A stretch of DNA of 22,599 nt from a virus. Within the stretch, counting starts at the first letter, position 1. The number at the start of each line of letters is the position of its first letter. The notes beneath the pieces are model-generated. The model had not been told where the DNA came from and searched no databases. It saw only the letters and a list, made by a program, of their open reading frames with translations. The stretch lies in the IMG/VR virus record IMGVR_UViG_3300020438_000302, positions 1 to 22,599 of that record. One strand, given 5' to 3'. The position numbers were made by a program, and so were the translations under genes. Shown here piece by piece: positions 1 to 7,777 of this stretch.

Positions 1-763
1 CTTCAAAGTCCTCATCATTCATTATGTTTTGATATGCACCGATACCTATACCAACACCAAGTGCAGCTCTACCAAGCCCAGTACCACCTAGAACCTTTCC
101 TAAGTTTAGGATACCACCACCAACCAATTTCAAAATACCTACAAAACTTTTGATCGTACCTAGAGGATTTGTTAGGAATGATAGTCCAGCTAATGCTATT
201 GCTGCTGCTCCTAACAATCCACCTGCACCTGTGATCCTTTCCATCAAGGTCTTATCTTGTCCGAATGCTTTATCCCAGTTCGTTGTGATCCACGTGTATA
301 GCCACGTCAACTTGTCTCTGATCCATACAAACATATTCTTGAAAAGAGTCAGTGTTTTGATTATTCTCTCTCGGTTCTCTGGTTTTGATAACCAATCTAA
401 TGCAGCATAAGTGATAAGTCCCTTGAAAAACTTCCATAAACGTCCTAGGAACCCTAGACCACCCTTTGCAATATTCTTTATTACATTACCTGCACCATCA
501 CCAGGTGTTTGTGATTCTATTCTTGCTTCTCTTTGTCTATCTGCTAATAACTTTGCACGATCCTTTGCATCTTTTGCTTGCTTTAACTGTTGTCTTTTCA
601 GTCCAGTCAATCCAACAGCAATACTATTAACTGTAGCACCTAGGGAATTAATTGCCTTAATGGTCGTAGAAAATTGTGTGCCAGCGACAGTCTTACTACC
701 AACAGTGATCTTAGTCTCACCCTTTGGTGGAGTTACATATTTGTAGAATCTTACAGTAGCCAT
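1..763 (-). CDS. Virion structural protein, N-terminal part (cut by window edge), paralogue of the 770-aa neighbour
   Basis: The open frame runs from an ATG at 763 to the window edge, about 254 codons, and its C-terminus lies outside. The start overlaps the stop of the upstream 770-aa gene as TAATG, which implies translational coupling. The N-terminal ~140 residues resemble those of that neighbour: both begin MAT, both have a DRQRE-(S/A)-(K/R)-IE motif (here residues 75-83), and both have an L-(N/D)-W-(M/L)-S-x-P-x-N motif (here 122-130). A charged, probably coiled-coil stretch around residues 55-85 is followed by Gly/Ala-rich hydrophobic segments. The protein is inferred to be a tail or baseplate-associated structural protein because it sits in the gp26/gp4/gp54-like block. 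The exact role is unknown, and a peptidase domain cannot be confirmed or excluded in the missing part. Confidence 0.75.
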   Translation of the reverse strand, partial: MATVRFYKYVTPPKGETKITVGSKTVAGTQFSTTIKAINSLGATVNSIAVGLTGLKRQQLKQAKDAKDRAKLLADRQREARIESQTPGDGAGNVIKNIAKGGLGFLGRLWKFFKGLITYAALDWLSKPENRERIIKTLTLFKNMFVWIRDKLTWLYTWITTNWDKAFGQDKTLMERITGAGGLLGAAAIALAGLSFLTNPLGTIKSFVGILKLVGGGILNLGKVLGGTGLGRAALGVGIGIGAYQNIMNDEDFE

Positions 764-3075
764 TAGATGTCTTTAACTGGTCTATTAACTGGAACGACTT
801 GATCACCACCACCAGTCTGGATAAAGTCACGTAACACTGGTTGTACAATGAATAATGTATTTGTAACGTCACCTCTGAGCTGTGCTGAGCTCTCTGCTTC
901 GGAACGCTGCTTCAATTCACTATTTAGTTTACCTCCTTTACCAGTACCACCTACAACATAATCAGATACTGGTTCTAATCTACCTGTGAAAGGAGACTCT
1001 TTACCATACTTAGTTAATGGATCAAAGATAGACGGACCTCCATAACCCACATCTTTAGGATTAGTGGAAGTCTCCCAGTGAAGGTGAGGTCCTGTAGATC
1101 TTCCTGAGTTACCTGCTTCACCCACCACTTGACCTGCTCTTAACTTTTGTCCGTCCTTCAACTTAGACATCTTATCCATATGTGCATAGAACTGTCCTAT
1201 GCCATCCCTTGTTGTAAATGCTATGTAATTACCATATCCTTTATCGTATCCAACATTCTGTACTACGCCATCCATAAAACTATGCAACTTCTCACCTATT
1301 TCAGTAGCAATATCAACTCCCTTGTGGATCTTACCCCACCTCATTGTCATTGCTTTAGAAGTAACTATATGATTAGTCATTTCAGCAGCAGCCGCGGCTG
1401 GGAATATTGAGAAATTGGATTTGGGTTGTATTCCTCCTTCACTTACTTTTTTAGACTGTAATTCCAGTAACTGCTTTTCAGCGTGTGGTATTAGAACTTC
1501 TTCCCAATGCTTAATCTTTTCATCAATGGTTGAACCAAGTGGATTCCAGTGTCCATTCCACATACCCATACCTGCTGCACCATTTGATGTCCTAGGAACG
1601 CCATCAACTCCAACACTTATCCACCTCTTATCTCCACCTTTCTCCTCTCTATCTTTTTTAAATTGGGCTAACTGCTCCTTCAATCGCTTAACGTCAAATG
1701 CTTCATTCTCTGTTTGTGCTTGTATTTTATCGTCACCAGTAGAAAAAATACGTTGGTACGTATTAACAGTACCACCTGCAAAATTAGCAATATTTGTGAT
1801 AAGACCACCCAGTATCTTCGAACCTGTGCTAATTAACCATATCAATGATTCAATTGCTTTTCCGACAGGTCCGTTGACAAGATAATCAGTATATCCTTTT
1901 ACAGCACTACTCATTAGAGGAGATATCTTTCTCCATACCATTTGTATGACTGGAACTACTGTCTTAATATATTCTGCTATTGTTTCTCTAAATGGTTCAA
2001 GGAATGCTTTAAAACCTGGTAAAAAGATACTCACAAAATAATCTTTTATAGGTTTGATTATAGGTGTTATAGCATCACCTATGAATGCACCAATCTTATC
2101 ACCTAAGAATCCACCAACTATATTACCGACTATAGGTGCAAAAGGTCCTAGTATTGGTGTTAAGAATGCTGTTAGTGCAACACCACCAATAGCAGCACCG
2201 ATACCACCACCTGCTGCCTTCTGTAAACTATCTCCCTGTGACATTCTTGTTCCAAATGAAACGAGACCACCAACAACAGATAATCCACCACCTTTCATAA
2301 ACCTACCTGCTTTCACTTTAGTCAAACGTTTCATACGAAGCATTCTCTTCGCACGTAGTTTCTTTGCTTTAATTTTGTTTATATTCTGGAGTCTTTGCTT
2401 CGCTATTTGTTTCTTAGTGAGTTGTTGAGTTGCTGAATTTTTAGTTGCATTCTTTCCATCTACACTAATTAACTTCCTAAGTCTATTCGCATCTCCTATT
2501 AACTTCCAAGGTTGTAGTATTCTATCTGCTAGGAAGAGTGCAGAAATACCACCAATTATCTTCAATGCTCCCATCACAGGAGAGTTTTCAGAGAATGCTT
2601 CTAATATCCAATTAACACCAGTTGATAATACTTTCCAAAACGTCTTCAACCATTTACCTATCCACGGTAATACAGTCTTAATGAGTTTTGTATTCTTTGG
2701 ATCGGACATCCAATTCAATGCAAGAAAACCAAGCAGCTTGGTACCAATCCAGATAAAGGGACTTAGAAGATTCTGTAAGAGTCCACCTGTCTTACGCAAA
2801 ACATTGTTACCCTTCTTATCTTCCCTATCCATCTCCTTCGACACATCTGCTTCTATCTTACTTTCTCTCTGCCTATCTCTAGTTAATTTTCTTTGGTCTT
2901 TCTGATCATCCAACCACTCCATCTTATCCATATGCATCTTTTGAATGATGCGTCCTAAATCTTCGACAACAAATCCAAGACGATTAATAGATGTCGTCAT
3001 TGAGGCTACAGGATCTGTGCGAACATCACCTGTGGTTTTCGCTGGTAAAAAAGATCTAATCTTTAATGTTGCCAT
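763..3075 (-). CDS. Virion structural protein with C-terminal M23 (LytM-type) peptidase domain
   Basis: This 770-aa protein carries a zinc metallopeptidase M23 domain at about residues 575-680. The ligand motifs are HKGVD (H584, D588) and GPHLHW (H664, H666), and a YAHM motif lies between them. M23 enzymes cut peptidoglycan cross-bridges, so the protein probably helps the tail open the cell wall. The N-terminal part has a charged coiled-coil-like region (about 50-90). The middle (about 265-370) is Gly/Ala-rich and hydrophobic, like tape-measure or membrane-interacting virion proteins. Residues 1-140 resemble the next gene downstream. The start overlaps the stop of the preceding frame as TAATG. 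Cyanomyoviruses commonly carry a large M23 structural protein next to gp26. The domain call is firm; the exact position in the virion is not known. Confidence 0.88.
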   Translation of the reverse strand: MATLKIRSFLPAKTTGDVRTDPVASMTTSINRLGFVVEDLGRIIQKMHMDKMEWLDDQKDQRKLTRDRQRESKIEADVSKEMDREDKKGNNVLRKTGGLLQNLLSPFIWIGTKLLGFLALNWMSDPKNTKLIKTVLPWIGKWLKTFWKVLSTGVNWILEAFSENSPVMGALKIIGGISALFLADRILQPWKLIGDANRLRKLISVDGKNATKNSATQQLTKKQIAKQRLQNINKIKAKKLRAKRMLRMKRLTKVKAGRFMKGGGLSVVGGLVSFGTRMSQGDSLQKAAGGGIGAAIGGVALTAFLTPILGPFAPIVGNIVGGFLGDKIGAFIGDAITPIIKPIKDYFVSIFLPGFKAFLEPFRETIAEYIKTVVPVIQMVWRKISPLMSSAVKGYTDYLVNGPVGKAIESLIWLISTGSKILGGLITNIANFAGGTVNTYQRIFSTGDDKIQAQTENEAFDVKRLKEQLAQFKKDREEKGGDKRWISVGVDGVPRTSNGAAGMGMWNGHWNPLGSTIDEKIKHWEEVLIPHAEKQLLELQSKKVSEGGIQPKSNFSIFPAAAAAEMTNHIVTSKAMTMRWGKIHKGVDIATEIGEKLHSFMDGVVQNVGYDKGYGNYIAFTTRDGIGQFYAHMDKMSKLKDGQKLRAGQVVGEAGNSGRSTGPHLHWETSTNPKDVGYGGPSIFDPLTKYGKESPFTGRLEPVSDYVVGGTGKGGKLNSELKQRSEAESSAQLRGDVTNTLFIVQPVLRDFIQTGGGDQVVPVNRPVKDI

Positions 3076-3275
3076 TATAGTTCTTGGCTTGTGCCCTGTG
3101 CTTGTTTCTGTCTCGCTTCTTCTTCACGAAGATATCTAATTAACAAGTTCACGTAAACATCCCTCTCCCAAGGCATCATATTCTCAAGTTCAGTTAAACT
3201 GTACTTGTGGTGTTGCATAAGGGCAAAGTTAACCTCATACAAGTTCAATAGAGAGTCGTGAGCTAGGGCTATTCG
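3075..3275 (-). CDS. gp51-like C-terminal extension of gp26, probably translated by -1 frameshift
   Basis: The frame is open for 66 codons from 3275 to a TAA at 3077-3075, and it overlaps the next start as TAATG. It lies in the -1 frame of gp26 and begins exactly at the slippery heptamer near the gp26 end. The predicted peptide contains SLLNLYEVNFAL, then SLTELENMMPWERD and a charged helix ending in a Q-rich tail. There is no ATG or GTG in this frame before codon 3218-3216, so independent initiation would give only 47 aa and lose the LNLYEV segment. A GAGG lies about 13 bases before that ATG and is the alternative. In T4, gene 51 (baseplate hub assembly) directly follows gene 26, and the position matches. 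A frameshifted product would be a 299-aa gp26 fusion, comparable to the lambda gpG/gpGT chaperones. Confidence 0.7.
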   Translation of the reverse strand, partial: RIALAHDSLLNLYEVNFALMQHHKYSLTELENMMPWERDVYVNLLIRYLREEEARQKQAQGTSQEL

Positions 3276-3973
3276 AAAAAAGCTGCTAGTCCTTCTAATG
3301 TCACAGTGCTTTTGACTTCAGTCTTTGGATTAAATACCTCGATCTCGTGAGATAACTTAGGCATAGTTTCAAAGAACTTTTGAACATCAGCAAACTGTTT
3401 AGAGTTCATACCTTCAAAGAAAGAAACTAATTCTGCTTTCTTATAGTCCTTGGCTTCGTGTAGTTCATCACCTTCAGCGATAGTATCAGTACAATCTGCT
3501 GCTAGTTTGAATACATCATCGATACCAGGTTCATCTGTCAAATTATTCTTAACGAAAGAATCCAATGAAGGATACTTCATAGTAAGAGTAACTTCGTCAG
3601 TCAGTACGATCTTATTAGAATGGTCTTTAGGGATTTGAATCTGAACATCATCTAAGTTCACTTCAACATCGACCGTTGTTTTTTCATCATCTGGGCAAGT
3701 GATTTTAAATTCACTCACTTCTCCAACAGACTTACCACGTATCTTCAAGAATAAAAATTCAATATCAAAAGTAGTTAATGTATTAACGTTTTTAATATTG
3801 GTGCAGTTTTTGATGATCTCTTTGACTGCTTTAATCATTTCTTTCTGGTTCTGAGATTCCATTGCTACGTATAGCAATTTCTCTTCACGAACTAGGAAAG
3901 GTCGATAAGTGACTTTTTGTCCAAATGGAAGTACGCATTCGTAATCTGGAATGCTAAGGGTTGGTAAAGGCAT
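3269..3973 (-). CDS. 26: gp26-like baseplate hub / tail assembly protein
   Basis: This 234-aa protein resembles the T4 baseplate protein family that contains gp26 (T4 gp26 is about 208 aa). The N-terminus has the typical form of a short peptide that reads 'PLPTLSIPDYECVLP', followed by a region of basic and acidic helices. A TFDIEFLFLKIRGKSVGE-like segment at about residues 68-85 is characteristic of the family. T4 gp26 is required for assembly of the baseplate hub. The stop is immediately preceded by a T_TTT_TTC slippery sequence that leads into a downstream -1 frame, so the gene probably makes both a short and a long form. A late-promoter-like CTAAATAG lies about 30 bases upstream of the start. 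No clear Shine-Dalgarno sequence precedes the ATG. Confidence 0.85.
   Translation of the reverse strand: MPLPTLSIPDYECVLPFGQKVTYRPFLVREEKLLYVAMESQNQKEMIKAVKEIIKNCTNIKNVNTLTTFDIEFLFLKIRGKSVGEVSEFKITCPDDEKTTVDVEVNLDDVQIQIPKDHSNKIVLTDEVTLTMKYPSLDSFVKNNLTDEPGIDDVFKLAADCTDTIAEGDELHEAKDYKKAELVSFFEGMNSKQFADVQKFFETMPKLSHEIEVFNPKTEVKSTVTLEGLAAFFE
3275..3296 (-). other. Candidate programmed -1 ribosomal frameshift site (SD-like element plus T_TTT_TTC)
   Basis: On the minus strand, an AGAAGGA (3296-3290) is followed eight bases later by TTTTTTC (3281-3275). In the gp26 frame this reads T TTT TTC, a canonical X_XXY_YYZ slippery heptamer. A one-base slip back there enters the open frame that ends at 3075. 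Internal SD sequences placed about ten bases upstream of a slippery site stimulate frameshifting in bacterial genes such as dnaX. Without the slip, translation ends two codons later (GAA TAG). No strong downstream stem was recognised. Confidence 0.7.
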
Positions 3974-4001: not shown

Positions 4002-4009
4002 CTATTTAG
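4002..4009 (-). promoter_or_regulatory. Late-promoter-like motif CTAAATAG upstream of gp26
   Basis: The motif lies about 30 bases upstream of the gp26 start and contains the TAA stop codon of the preceding gene. It resembles the T4 late -10 element TATAAATA. The same 7-8-base word occurs in front of gp32 and of the 13594-13833 gene in the same stop-codon-overlapping position, which supports a functional role. Confidence 0.45.
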
Positions 4010-4725
4010 ATGCCAAACTGAGTGTTTGTATCAGTCCCAAGTCCTAACGCTTGGGCGACATCTAAATTCTCGGTTATAACTTTGTCATCAGTCCAGTCTT
4101 TAGGTTTCTGAACTTTAGTGGTGAACCTATATCTCTCAAAGTTAAAGAGCATATTCATTTTCAAGACTCCACCAGCATCATTTGCAAATTCTAGTCCACC
4201 CATATTAACTGGATAACATTTTGTGAATTGATAGATACCAACTGCCTTGTTCATACGTGAGAAATAATCTACACCACCGTGTTTTACGTGATTCAAATAG
4301 TTTGAACCTCTTTCCCACTTTCTAACGTATATATCAGTTGTATAATCATCATAGAAACCAACTCTATTCTCAGAGTCTGGTGCAATCTTCTGCATCCACT
4401 TTTCAAAGAAGTTTCTGTGCCAACCACTTTTAGTCATCATAAAACTTATAGTTAGTTGATTCTCTGTCTGACCTGTTGCATATTTCCTTCCTATTCCAAA
4501 ATTCTTGATGTCCCCTGTGGTGATGTTACGTGAAGGTATACTTACACCATCAGAAAAATAGTTCATATGATTATACCAGCTCTGCACATCCAACTCAAAA
4601 CCAGGTATGTAGTTAGTAATTGCAGGCAAACCGAACTCTACTGAGTATAGATTACCTAGAGTAGGTTCACTATAACCGCCACCTGCGATGTCTTTAAAGA
4701 CTGTAAATGAATTTGGAGCTGCCAT
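4006..4725 (-). CDS. Tail-tube-fold baseplate protein, gp54-like (baseplate-tail tube initiator)
   Basis: This 239-aa protein has the pattern of the myoviral tail tube / tube initiator family. An early YSVEFGLP strand is followed by 'NYFSDGVSIPSRNITTG', then a GRKYATGQTENQLTISF strand-rich segment. Next come RNFFEKWMQKI and a 'YDDYTTDIYV' segment, and finally a YQFTKCYPVNMGGLEF strand. It lies between gp26 and gp4 and opposite gp48, and in T4 gp48 and gp54 together cap the baseplate and start the tube. The gp54 assignment rests on fold-like pattern and context. It is shorter than T4 gp54 (about 320 aa), so another tube-like baseplate protein remains possible. The start overlaps the upstream stop as TAATG. 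Confidence 0.6.
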   Translation of the reverse strand: MAAPNSFTVFKDIAGGGYSEPTLGNLYSVEFGLPAITNYIPGFELDVQSWYNHMNYFSDGVSIPSRNITTGDIKNFGIGRKYATGQTENQLTISFMMTKSGWHRNFFEKWMQKIAPDSENRVGFYDDYTTDIYVRKWERGSNYLNHVKHGGVDYFSRMNKAVGIYQFTKCYPVNMGGLEFANDAGGVLKMNMLFNFERYRFTTKVQKPKDWTDDKVITENLDVAQALGLGTDTNTQFGI

Positions 4726-5615: not shown

Positions 5616-6785
5616 ATGGCACTTTCAGATTTTATACAAACAGCATTAAAAGCATCTTTAGATGGTCAATCTACTGGTGATATCGATGTAAATATGGGTT
5701 CAGGCGGTACAGCACCGCTTGTTTATCCAAGGGAATTACCTGCTCAAGTAGGAAAGTCCAAGGATAATATCAGAGAAGATGATACTGTAGATACCCAATA
5801 CATTGATTACTTACGTATTCAAATATTCAAAACTCAAGGTGCAGGTGGTGCTAACCCCTATACTTGGGTCGGAGATGGTGCGTCAGGAACTCAACCATTT
5901 CAAGGTAGATCAGAACAGAATAACTTATTCAAATCTATTTATCTTTACCTCCCTCCTAATTTAAACGAACAGTATGGTGCCAACTATGAAACTACAACTT
6001 TAGGTGCAGCAGGTGCAGGTTTAGCAGGTGAAGCATCTAAGTTAGCTCAGGGTGGAAGCGTTACTATTGAAGATGCAACTGATACACTACAGAAGATGGC
6101 AGGTACTGCTAAACCACAGTTCTTAATGAACGCAGCAGCAACAGCATTAGGTGCAGTTAATTCAGCAGTTGGTTCTGATGGAAGTATAAGTGGTGATGAA
6201 TTGAGTGCTATAACAACGAAGAAAATATTTAACCCATATCAAGAAGTAACATTCAGAGGTGTACAGTATAGATCACATAACTTTACCTTCAAGATGGCAC
6301 CACGTAACATCAAGGAAGCACAAGAGTGTTATCGTATTGTGTCCACACTAAGAGAAAGAATGCTACCAACATATTCTGCTGGTACTAAGGATGAATTTCC
6401 TGGCAGTGCTGGTAACTTCGTAGGTTCAGGTGTTGGAAGTATCGGAGGTGCTAGGTACCTTAATATTCCAGACATCTTTAGACTTGCAATCGTGAGAGTA
6501 GAAGCAACTGAGACTGAGGAAGGTAACTTCAGTGCAATCAGACCTGCTGGTATTTCAAAATTAGTAAGATATCCAACCAAGTTGGTTCTATCTGACCTCA
6601 AGATTGATGCTGCTGGTGATGGTCAAGGATACATATCATTAAAGAACCTAGCAGATACTTTCCACGATTACGGTCCTGTGTCTATGAATCTTGAACTTAC
6701 ATTTAAAGAGACTCAGTTTGTTACACGTGAAATGGTTCAAGACAAACCACAAGTCTTCACACAAGGTCCTTCAACTAACGCATAA
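5616..6785 (+). CDS. 48: gp48-like baseplate tail tube cap protein
   Basis: This 389-aa protein is close to T4 gp48 in length (about 364 aa). The N-terminal part includes a TQYIDYLRIQIFK strand and an Ala/Gly-rich central stretch (about 125-180). The C-terminal half holds the recognisable 'GVQYRSHNFTFKMAPRN' segment followed by KEAQECYRIVSTLRERMLP, which is typical of the gp48/gp54 tail-tube-fold family. gp48 sits on the baseplate hub and primes tail tube polymerisation. A TAAGG six bases before the ATG is a good ribosome binding site. The stop overlaps the gp53 start as TAATG. A T4-type late promoter lies 75 bases upstream. The strand is opposite to the rest of the structural genes in the window. 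Confidence 0.82.
   Translation: MALSDFIQTALKASLDGQSTGDIDVNMGSGGTAPLVYPRELPAQVGKSKDNIREDDTVDTQYIDYLRIQIFKTQGAGGANPYTWVGDGASGTQPFQGRSEQNNLFKSIYLYLPPNLNEQYGANYETTTLGAAGAGLAGEASKLAQGGSVTIEDATDTLQKMAGTAKPQFLMNAAATALGAVNSAVGSDGSISGDELSAITTKKIFNPYQEVTFRGVQYRSHNFTFKMAPRNIKEAQECYRIVSTLRERMLPTYSAGTKDEFPGSAGNFVGSGVGSIGGARYLNIPDIFRLAIVRVEATETEEGNFSAIRPAGISKLVRYPTKLVLSDLKIDAAGDGQGYISLKNLADTFHDYGPVSMNLELTFKETQFVTREMVQDKPQVFTQGPSTNA
5935..5944 (-). promoter_or_regulatory. Late-promoter-like AGATAAATAG, candidate for the gp4 operon
   Basis: GATAAATA matches the T4 late -10 in seven of eight positions. It faces the gp4-leading minus-strand operon and lies inside gp48, about 320 bases from the gp4 start. A nearer, weaker TATAAAAT lies at about 5631-5638. 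Either could serve, because no intergenic space exists between gp4 and gp48. Confidence 0.3.
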
Positions 6786-7777
6786 TGGCATATTTTAAAT
6801 ATCTACCTAAAGTTTACGTACGTAATAGAACGATTCAAGAAGGAAATCATCCTTATCAATTGACTCGTAATATATTTCGTCGTATCAAAATTAAAGATCA
6901 ACTTCTTGGTAGTCTTCTAGGATTCACACAGTATTCTATTCAAGAAGGTGAACGTCCAGATCAAGTTGCACGTAAGTTTTATGGTGACTCTGGATTAGAT
7001 TGGATGGTATTGATTATTAATAATATCATCAACATATATGAAGATTGGCCAATGAATCGTGAAGATCTATATCGGTACACAGTAAAGCATTATGGTAGTG
7101 TGGATGCAATAAGTCACTATGAATCGGTTGATATATTTGCTACATCTGGTGAGAAACTTCTTAATGAAGGTATAACAGTTAATGAGAACTTCCAATATGC
7201 AAGACCAGACGGAACTCTTGTACCTAAAGAAGAATGTCGTAGAGCAGTGACTAACTTCGAAGTTCAATCTGCAAAGAATGAAGCAAAGAGGAATATCTAT
7301 CTATTACGTGAAGATTACGTTGGTGATTTCTTAAATGAATTTAAACGTTTATGTCGTTACTTGCCACACGGAGAAATAGATGCACAAGGCAATAAAAAAA
7401 CTCCTACTACTATTGCAGAGGAGTTCATTGGTGTATCAAGTTACAGGAAACCTTCTCAGTCTACAGCATCCACAGGATCAGCATCAGGTAGTGGTTCAAG
7501 TACAGCGTTAATTGCTAGTGGTGGAGGTGGAGATGATTCTACGACTGCTGCAACAACGACAAATGCCACAGTAGAAGATACCACCACATCATCCACATCA
7601 TCCACAAACTCATCGTCAACGTCATCATCAACTGATAGTTCTTCGTCATCGAGTTCAAGTTCTTCTTCAAGTAGTTCATCATCTAGTAGTTCATCATCAA
7701 GTTCTTCAAGTTCTTCCAGTGGATCTTCTAGTGGTGGAGGTTACTATGGTAGTGGATATCAACATTGGCATTGGTAG
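6785..7777 (+). CDS. 53: gp53-like baseplate wedge protein with poly-serine C-terminal tail
   Basis: The first ~215 residues match T4 gp53 (196 aa). They show an N-terminal YFKYLPKVYVRNRT, a LysM-like 'SIQEGERPDQVARKFYGD' (about 51-68) and LDWMVLIINNIINIYEDWP. gp53 links the six wedges around the baseplate hub. Residues ~220-330 are an extension absent from T4: a Ser/Thr/Gly-rich linker, then an uninterrupted run of 28 serines (about 285-312), then a short Gly/Tyr tail ending YQHWHW. The run uses five of six serine codons (10 AGT, 9 TCA, 6 TCT, 2 TCG, 1 TCC). The start overlaps the gp48 stop (TAATG). Only one base separates the stop from the convergent downstream gene, and no terminator is visible. 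Confidence 0.85.
   Translation: MAYFKYLPKVYVRNRTIQEGNHPYQLTRNIFRRIKIKDQLLGSLLGFTQYSIQEGERPDQVARKFYGDSGLDWMVLIINNIINIYEDWPMNREDLYRYTVKHYGSVDAISHYESVDIFATSGEKLLNEGITVNENFQYARPDGTLVPKEECRRAVTNFEVQSAKNEAKRNIYLLREDYVGDFLNEFKRLCRYLPHGEIDAQGNKKTPTTIAEEFIGVSSYRKPSQSTASTGSASGSGSSTALIASGGGGDDSTTAATTTNATVEDTTTSSTSSTNSSSTSSSTDSSSSSSSSSSSSSSSSSSSSSSSSSSSSGSSSGGGYYGSGYQHWHW

Follow-up and report, generated by a model that had tools for sequence, protein, structure and literature searches.

Comparative evidence for a proposed −1 frameshifted tail assembly chaperone at the gp26–gp51 junction of a T4-like cyanophage-type virus

Analysis of the gp26–gp51 junction in the IMG/VR record IMGVR_UViG_3300020438_000302 (positions 1 to 22,599; the whole stretch of 22,599 nucleotides is referred to as the window) indicated that this locus is a T4-like cyanophage tail assembly chaperone gene, which encodes a short form and a predicted long form reached by −1 frameshifting, a reading to which we assign a probability of about 0.93. 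The source is a T4-like cyanophage-type virus, and its closest named relatives by gp26 belong to the Kyanoviridae, e.g. S-WAM1 with 61% identity. The lambda G/GT-like −1 frameshift cassette proposed in an earlier note on this DNA is strongly supported by the conservation of the slippery heptamer and of the −1 codons, by T4 gp51, and by a modest resemblance of the predicted fold to the HK97 and YqbN chaperones. As genes 26 and 51 were identified as T4-like tail assembly chaperones in 2022 (Vladimirov, Gautam and Davidson 2022, Virology 566:9-15, doi 10.1016/j.virol.2021.11.003; as represented in papers citing that study), the cyanophage site is not new in kind, but very probably a further, sound example of a system already known, one that is real and widely conserved. 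The features of the junction and its neighbourhood are as follows.

4006-4725, minus strand: gene before gp26, encoding the tail tube protein (match to tail tube group phrog_45, E=4e-40)
3973-3269, minus strand: gp26, predicted short chaperone form (TAC-N), open reading frame of 234 aa (PF12322 T4_baseplate, PHROG 150)
3296-3290, minus strand: SD-like element AGAAGGA, 8 nt before the heptamer, encoding part of a conserved EGL motif
3281-3275, minus strand: slippery heptamer T_TTT_TTC in gp26 phase, read from the sequence and conserved as T_TTT_TTY
3271-3269, minus strand: gp26 stop TAG, one codon past the heptamer, read from the sequence
3275-3075, minus strand: −1 frame after the slip, predicted TAC-C tail, RIALAHDSLLNLYEVNFALMQHHKY... 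to TAA, annotated as a small 'gp51' in relatives
763-3075, minus strand: next gene, tape-measure-like protein of 770 aa with an M23 peptidase domain (PF01551, E=9.6e-25)

The 3' end of gp26 reads GCT TTT TTC GAA TAG, and a second zero-frame TAG follows two codons after the stop (TAG CCC TAG). The −1 frame opens at 3317 and runs without a stop to the TAA at 3077-3075, with CGA at 3275 as its first post-slip codon; if this codon is numbered 0, the first ATG falls on codon 19 (at 3218), while TTGs occupy codons 9 and 11 (at 3248 and 3242). The end of gp26, the heptamer, the spacing of AGAAGGA, the limits of the −1 frame and the lengths of 234 and 299 aa for gp26 and the predicted fusion product had all been given in the earlier note and agree with the sequence to the base. 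The first ATG of the −1 frame at 3218 likewise agrees with that note, in which the two TTGs were not listed.

According to the proposed mechanism, most ribosomes would read gp26 to its TAG and release the short form TAC-N. A minority would slip back by one base when the two Phe tRNAs on TTT TTC re-pair on TTT TTT, and these ribosomes, for which the TAG is out of frame, would go on to translate the −1 tail, giving the long form TAC-NC of 299 aa. By analogy with lambda gpG/gpGT, both forms would coat the tape measure protein, the tail domain would recruit tube subunits, and both forms would depart before the tail is completed. The lambda slippery site is GGGAAAG, in place of the T_TTT_TTC of the cyanophage stretch.

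A total of 106 non-identical junctions with an in-frame heptamer was gathered from IMG/VR and GenBank and reduced to 51 representatives differing by more than 15%. As this set was chosen for having the heptamer, the exceptions need to be stated: among the sequences scanned for it, only L172, Cygsa01 and K364 were without one. In-frame T_TTT_TTY was present in 51/51 representatives compared with 8/257 control Phe-Phe pairs from the same loci (Fisher p about 3e-50, with lineages treated as independent), 44 of the heptamers being TTTTTTC and 7 TTTTTTT. The codon preceding the heptamer's TTT is of seven kinds, encoding Ala, Ser, Asn, Asp, Thr or His, and every one of them ends in T. Distant phages retained the heptamer as well, namely KVP40, PX29, 65.2, LPCS28, Ci1, pf16 and Cr30, together with phiM12, D482, Desulfovibrio 7757, X1, Marzo, Astolliot and phiW-14. 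Searches of viral contigs with gp26 of D482, Desulfovibrio 7757 and K364 as queries found no relatives.

A slippery appearance could also arise by chance, if a conserved Phe-Phe happened to be encoded as TTT TTC after a codon ending in T and the downstream frame were a vestige; the Phe-Phe is indeed a conserved part of the protein, and Phe is more often encoded by TTT than by TTC (2276 vs 1807). However, only the above 8 of 257 other Phe-Phe pairs look alike, merely 30% of Ala codons and 49% of Ser codons in the same loci end in T, and the T4-type gp26, which needs no slip, encodes its Phe-Phe as TTC TTT. Chance is thus ruled out statistically and, in our estimate, very improbable.

The T-run also raises the question of a sequencing or assembly error that splits one gene into two frames, since homopolymers are error-prone and the IMG/VR locus L172 has five T's where the near-identical L171 has six. 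Against such an error, 79/79 full-length IMG/VR loci share this arrangement of two frames together with the run of six T's, and GenBank isolates from many hosts show this layout too; independent assemblies rule the error out, and we regard it as extremely improbable. In L172, a Stenotrophomonas-type phage, the five-T run (around 2250) abolishes the heptamer and extends gp26 in another frame, which is likely a homopolymer slip, either in the sequence (sequencing error) or in the genome (real change). The marine relatives L098, L124 and L143 continue the gp26 frame for eight codons beyond the heptamer to the stop, so that a slip site directly next to the stop is not required.

Inspection of the sequence following the slip site revealed that only the −1 frame is kept open: within the first 51 nt, stops occurred in 0/51 representatives in this frame, compared with 51/51 and 45/51 in the other two. 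A motif FFR[IV]AL.HDS is conserved among the 51 representatives from the first post-slip codon onwards, and, when codons are divided according to the −1 frame, substitutions favour their third positions (9562, 7506, 13478 differences). Across the 79 loci of the virus's own clade, the last gp26 codon is GAA, GAG, GCG or GCA; it varies freely in the gp26 frame, and the effect in the −1 frame is either silent (Arg) or an exchange of Ile and Val. Judging from these sequence comparisons, the −1 codons are under selection. The −1 tail matched phrog_634 (E=6.3e-29) and positions 236-276 of phrog_150 (E=9e-5). The peptide that the earlier note had considered plausible and conserved, beginning with the first post-slip codon, is indeed conserved across families, and relatives retained both features on which that note had staked its proposal, the slippery site and the conserved codons between 3219 and 3275. 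In the records of S-WAM1, Aeromonas 65.2 and Cronobacter LPCS28 (L190, L181 and L182, respectively), the −1 tail is unannotated.

Readthrough of the gp26 TAG would offer another route to a long form, and TAG is the commonest gp26 stop (82/106). This stop is explained by the −1 frame, where it falls within [AG]TA-G. The conserved tail lies in another frame, and readthrough would add just two residues because of the second zero-frame TAG two codons on; the sequence therefore rules it out, and its probability is close to nil.

The small gp51 could instead be a protein in its own right, translated either by ribosomes that re-initiate after terminating at the end of gp26 or from its own start (TTG 3248/3242 or ATG 3218). 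Databases do annotate gp51 as a gene of its own, and an ATG overlaps the gp26 stop (TAATG or TGATG) in D482, KVP40, Marzo and S-CRM01. Among the 51 representatives, however, the position of the first ATG in the −1 frame ranges between codons 1 and 32, and some have no ATG at all. Only 1/51 has an SD-backed start in codons 0-6, and in L098, L119, L124, L146 and L088 the first 19 codons include neither ATG nor GTG nor TTG. As no start codon position is conserved, separate initiation is disfavoured as a general mechanism. In the window itself, the two TTGs have no SD (0.4 kcal/mol), and a start at ATG 3218 would lose 19 conserved codons. Separate initiation would also leave the invariant heptamer and the in-frame fusion of T4 unexplained, and we consider it improbable. 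The TAATG/TGATG overlaps of the few lineages could add a second product.

Comparison with T4 provided further evidence for a frameshifted long form. PF12322 matches both T4 proteins (gp26, 8.8e-64; gp51, 3.9e-52), and T4 gp51 covers positions 13-280 of the 282 of phrog_150 as well as phrog_634, the group of the small cyanophage gp51. The alignment of T4 gp51 runs through the junction and shows this protein to consist of the short domain and the −1 tail, both read in a single frame. T4 gp26 ends where the cyanophage short form ends (RGLKEFFELL vs EGLAAFFE) and retains the Phe-Phe, and no heptamer was found in the gp26 genes of two-copy phages. In genome searches, T4, 44RR and Klebsiella CP-p-KP-21068 each gave two copies and ZZ1 gave three matching pieces at two loci, while each heptamer phage checked had one copy (KVP40, Marzo, P-SSM4, PX29, LPCS28, Cr30, Astolliot, phiW-14). 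At the level of sequence, T4 gp26 and gp51 are paralogues of the single cyanophage protein, and T4 is an independent witness. The earlier note had placed T4 genes 26 and 51 in this same order and remarked that they are treated as separate genes; they are in fact divergent paralogues on opposite strands, gene 26 on the minus and gene 51 on the plus strand. T4-group phages (L086, L184, L185, L186) carry gp26/gp51 paralogues as a short copy and an in-frame long copy, and in Klebsiella CP-p-KP-21068 both copies are adjacent on the same strand.

If the long form arises as proposed, the small 'gp51' annotated in hundreds of cyanophage genomes would be the C-terminal part of a frameshifted chaperone and not a 60-aa catalyst, which would correct its annotation. 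This identity would also explain the short gp51 of cyanophages, which was remarked to be only about 20% as long as other gp51s (PMC3037559). A review of T4 describes gp26 and gp51 as hub assembly chaperones, with gp51 absent from the particle and genetic support for gp26 in the hub (PMC3004832). Our results lend strong comparative support to the published view of the T4 hub genes 26 and 51 as chaperones of the tape measure, T4 being the case in which the gene was duplicated. The link between hub assembly and chaperones drawn in the earlier note is thus supported, but had already been published by Vladimirov et al. 2022.

The canonical heptamer is not universal, because Ackermannviridae and some Vibrio/Pseudomonas relatives have a single copy and a conserved −1 tail but no T_TTT_TTY heptamer. 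This group comprises the Ackermannviridae Marshall, Ds25CZ, YC and Ea2809 and also Cygsa01, D507 and K364, whose gp26 ends offer only pairs such as ATT TTC, CTT TTC, CTT TTT or GCT TTC one codon before TAA. These ends were recorded in loci L216, L217, L219, L220, L221, L083 and L090, each with a single PF12322 gene; Marshall (TAATT) and Ea2809 (TAATA) have no ATG at the gp26 stop either. We tentatively consider, at slightly less than even odds, that one chaperone family uses three schemes, namely the T_TTT_TTY heptamer, duplication with an in-frame long copy as in the T4 group, and a heptamer-less single copy. If true, the last scheme implies a non-canonical slip or stop-start coupling. It was not found in the literature searched, in which Vladimirov et al. 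2022 was represented by its citing papers.

With respect to stimulatory elements, the SD strength of AGAAGGA is −6.1 kcal/mol, compared with −2.2 kcal/mol for other segments along gp26. Yet it is not stronger than synonymous shuffles of its own codons (p = 0.58; median p 0.42 over the 51 representatives), and as the conserved EGL/RGL (E/R-G-L) codons account for this strength, the SD-like element is a by-product. The dnaX-type SD stimulator suggested earlier consequently finds no evidence of independent selection in this comparison. Alignment of the junction across relatives, proposed as a check, bore out the heptamer and the −1 codons preceding the ATG, but not the SD-like element. Downstream RNA structure is ordinary in the window (z = −0.7) and reaches z < −2 in 20/51 relatives.

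By profile match, gp26 belongs to PF12322 T4_baseplate (E=3e-67, 227 bits against a curated cut-off of 24.5), and it matched phrog_150 with E=5.8e-74. An AlphaFold2 model of the short form alone, built with 37 aligned gp26s (pLDDT 87), was compared with a structure library of 350,542 chains. Its top PDB matches by VIA-align were the HK97 tail assembly chaperone 2ob9 (Z 7.3) and YqbN 3klu (Z 6.8), each over residues 1-85 only; these matches are modest (Foldseek E 0.73), and a VIA Z under 8 can reflect merely a common arrangement. We take YqbN to be chaperone-like. A profile search of PDB sequences with gp26 gave nothing meaningful.

The gene order is tail tube, chaperone, tape-measure-like, and the ATG of the last gene overlaps the TAA of the −1 frame. 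Its 770-aa product matched the tape measure group phrog_167 (E=1e-21), with the peptidase part contributing most of the match, and the gene at the same position is annotated as tape measure in HTVC008M and Cr30 and as similar to tape measure proteins in phiM12; the tape-measure assignment of 763-3075 thus rests partly on the annotations of relatives. As proposed for gp26, lambda gpG/gpGT and HK97 have a short form and a −1 fused long form encoded between tail tube and tape measure, and the HK97 chaperone shows the modest fold resemblance over residues 1-85, whereas the PDB search showed no sequence similarity of these proteins to gp26. Frameshifting was reportedly found by Vladimirov and colleagues to be conserved in several T4-like groups.

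The T4-like 26/51 chaperones agree with the locus in PF12322 and in having gp26 as the short form and a gp26-like domain with a gp51 tail as the long form; T4 differs in using two duplicated genes with no shift, where the cyanophage stretch has one gene with a heptamer. Of two papers citing Vladimirov et al. 2022 (PMC10885494, PMC12846349), PMC12846349 credits that study with poly-T −1 frameshift signals in T4-like TAC-N genes, and PMC10885494 states that some T4-like phages have one short copy and one fused long copy in place of frameshifting. In Vandenendeviridae and Andersonviridae, a −1 shift occurs at a poly-T motif (GTTTTT) at the TAC-N end, and the downstream ORF is likewise annotated as a separate hypothetical gene (PMC12846349); these are other phage families, and the likeness lies in the shift site and gene layout.

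Elsewhere in the window, the products of the two genes downstream of gp26, 2-763 and 763-3075, have a common N-terminal region (29% over 136 aa, E 4e-11), so that a duplication may link these two proteins, which are tape-measure-like or belong to the hub. The gene at 6785-7777 encodes a 330-aa protein with a long serine tract near its end, followed by a Gly/Tyr/His-rich tail.
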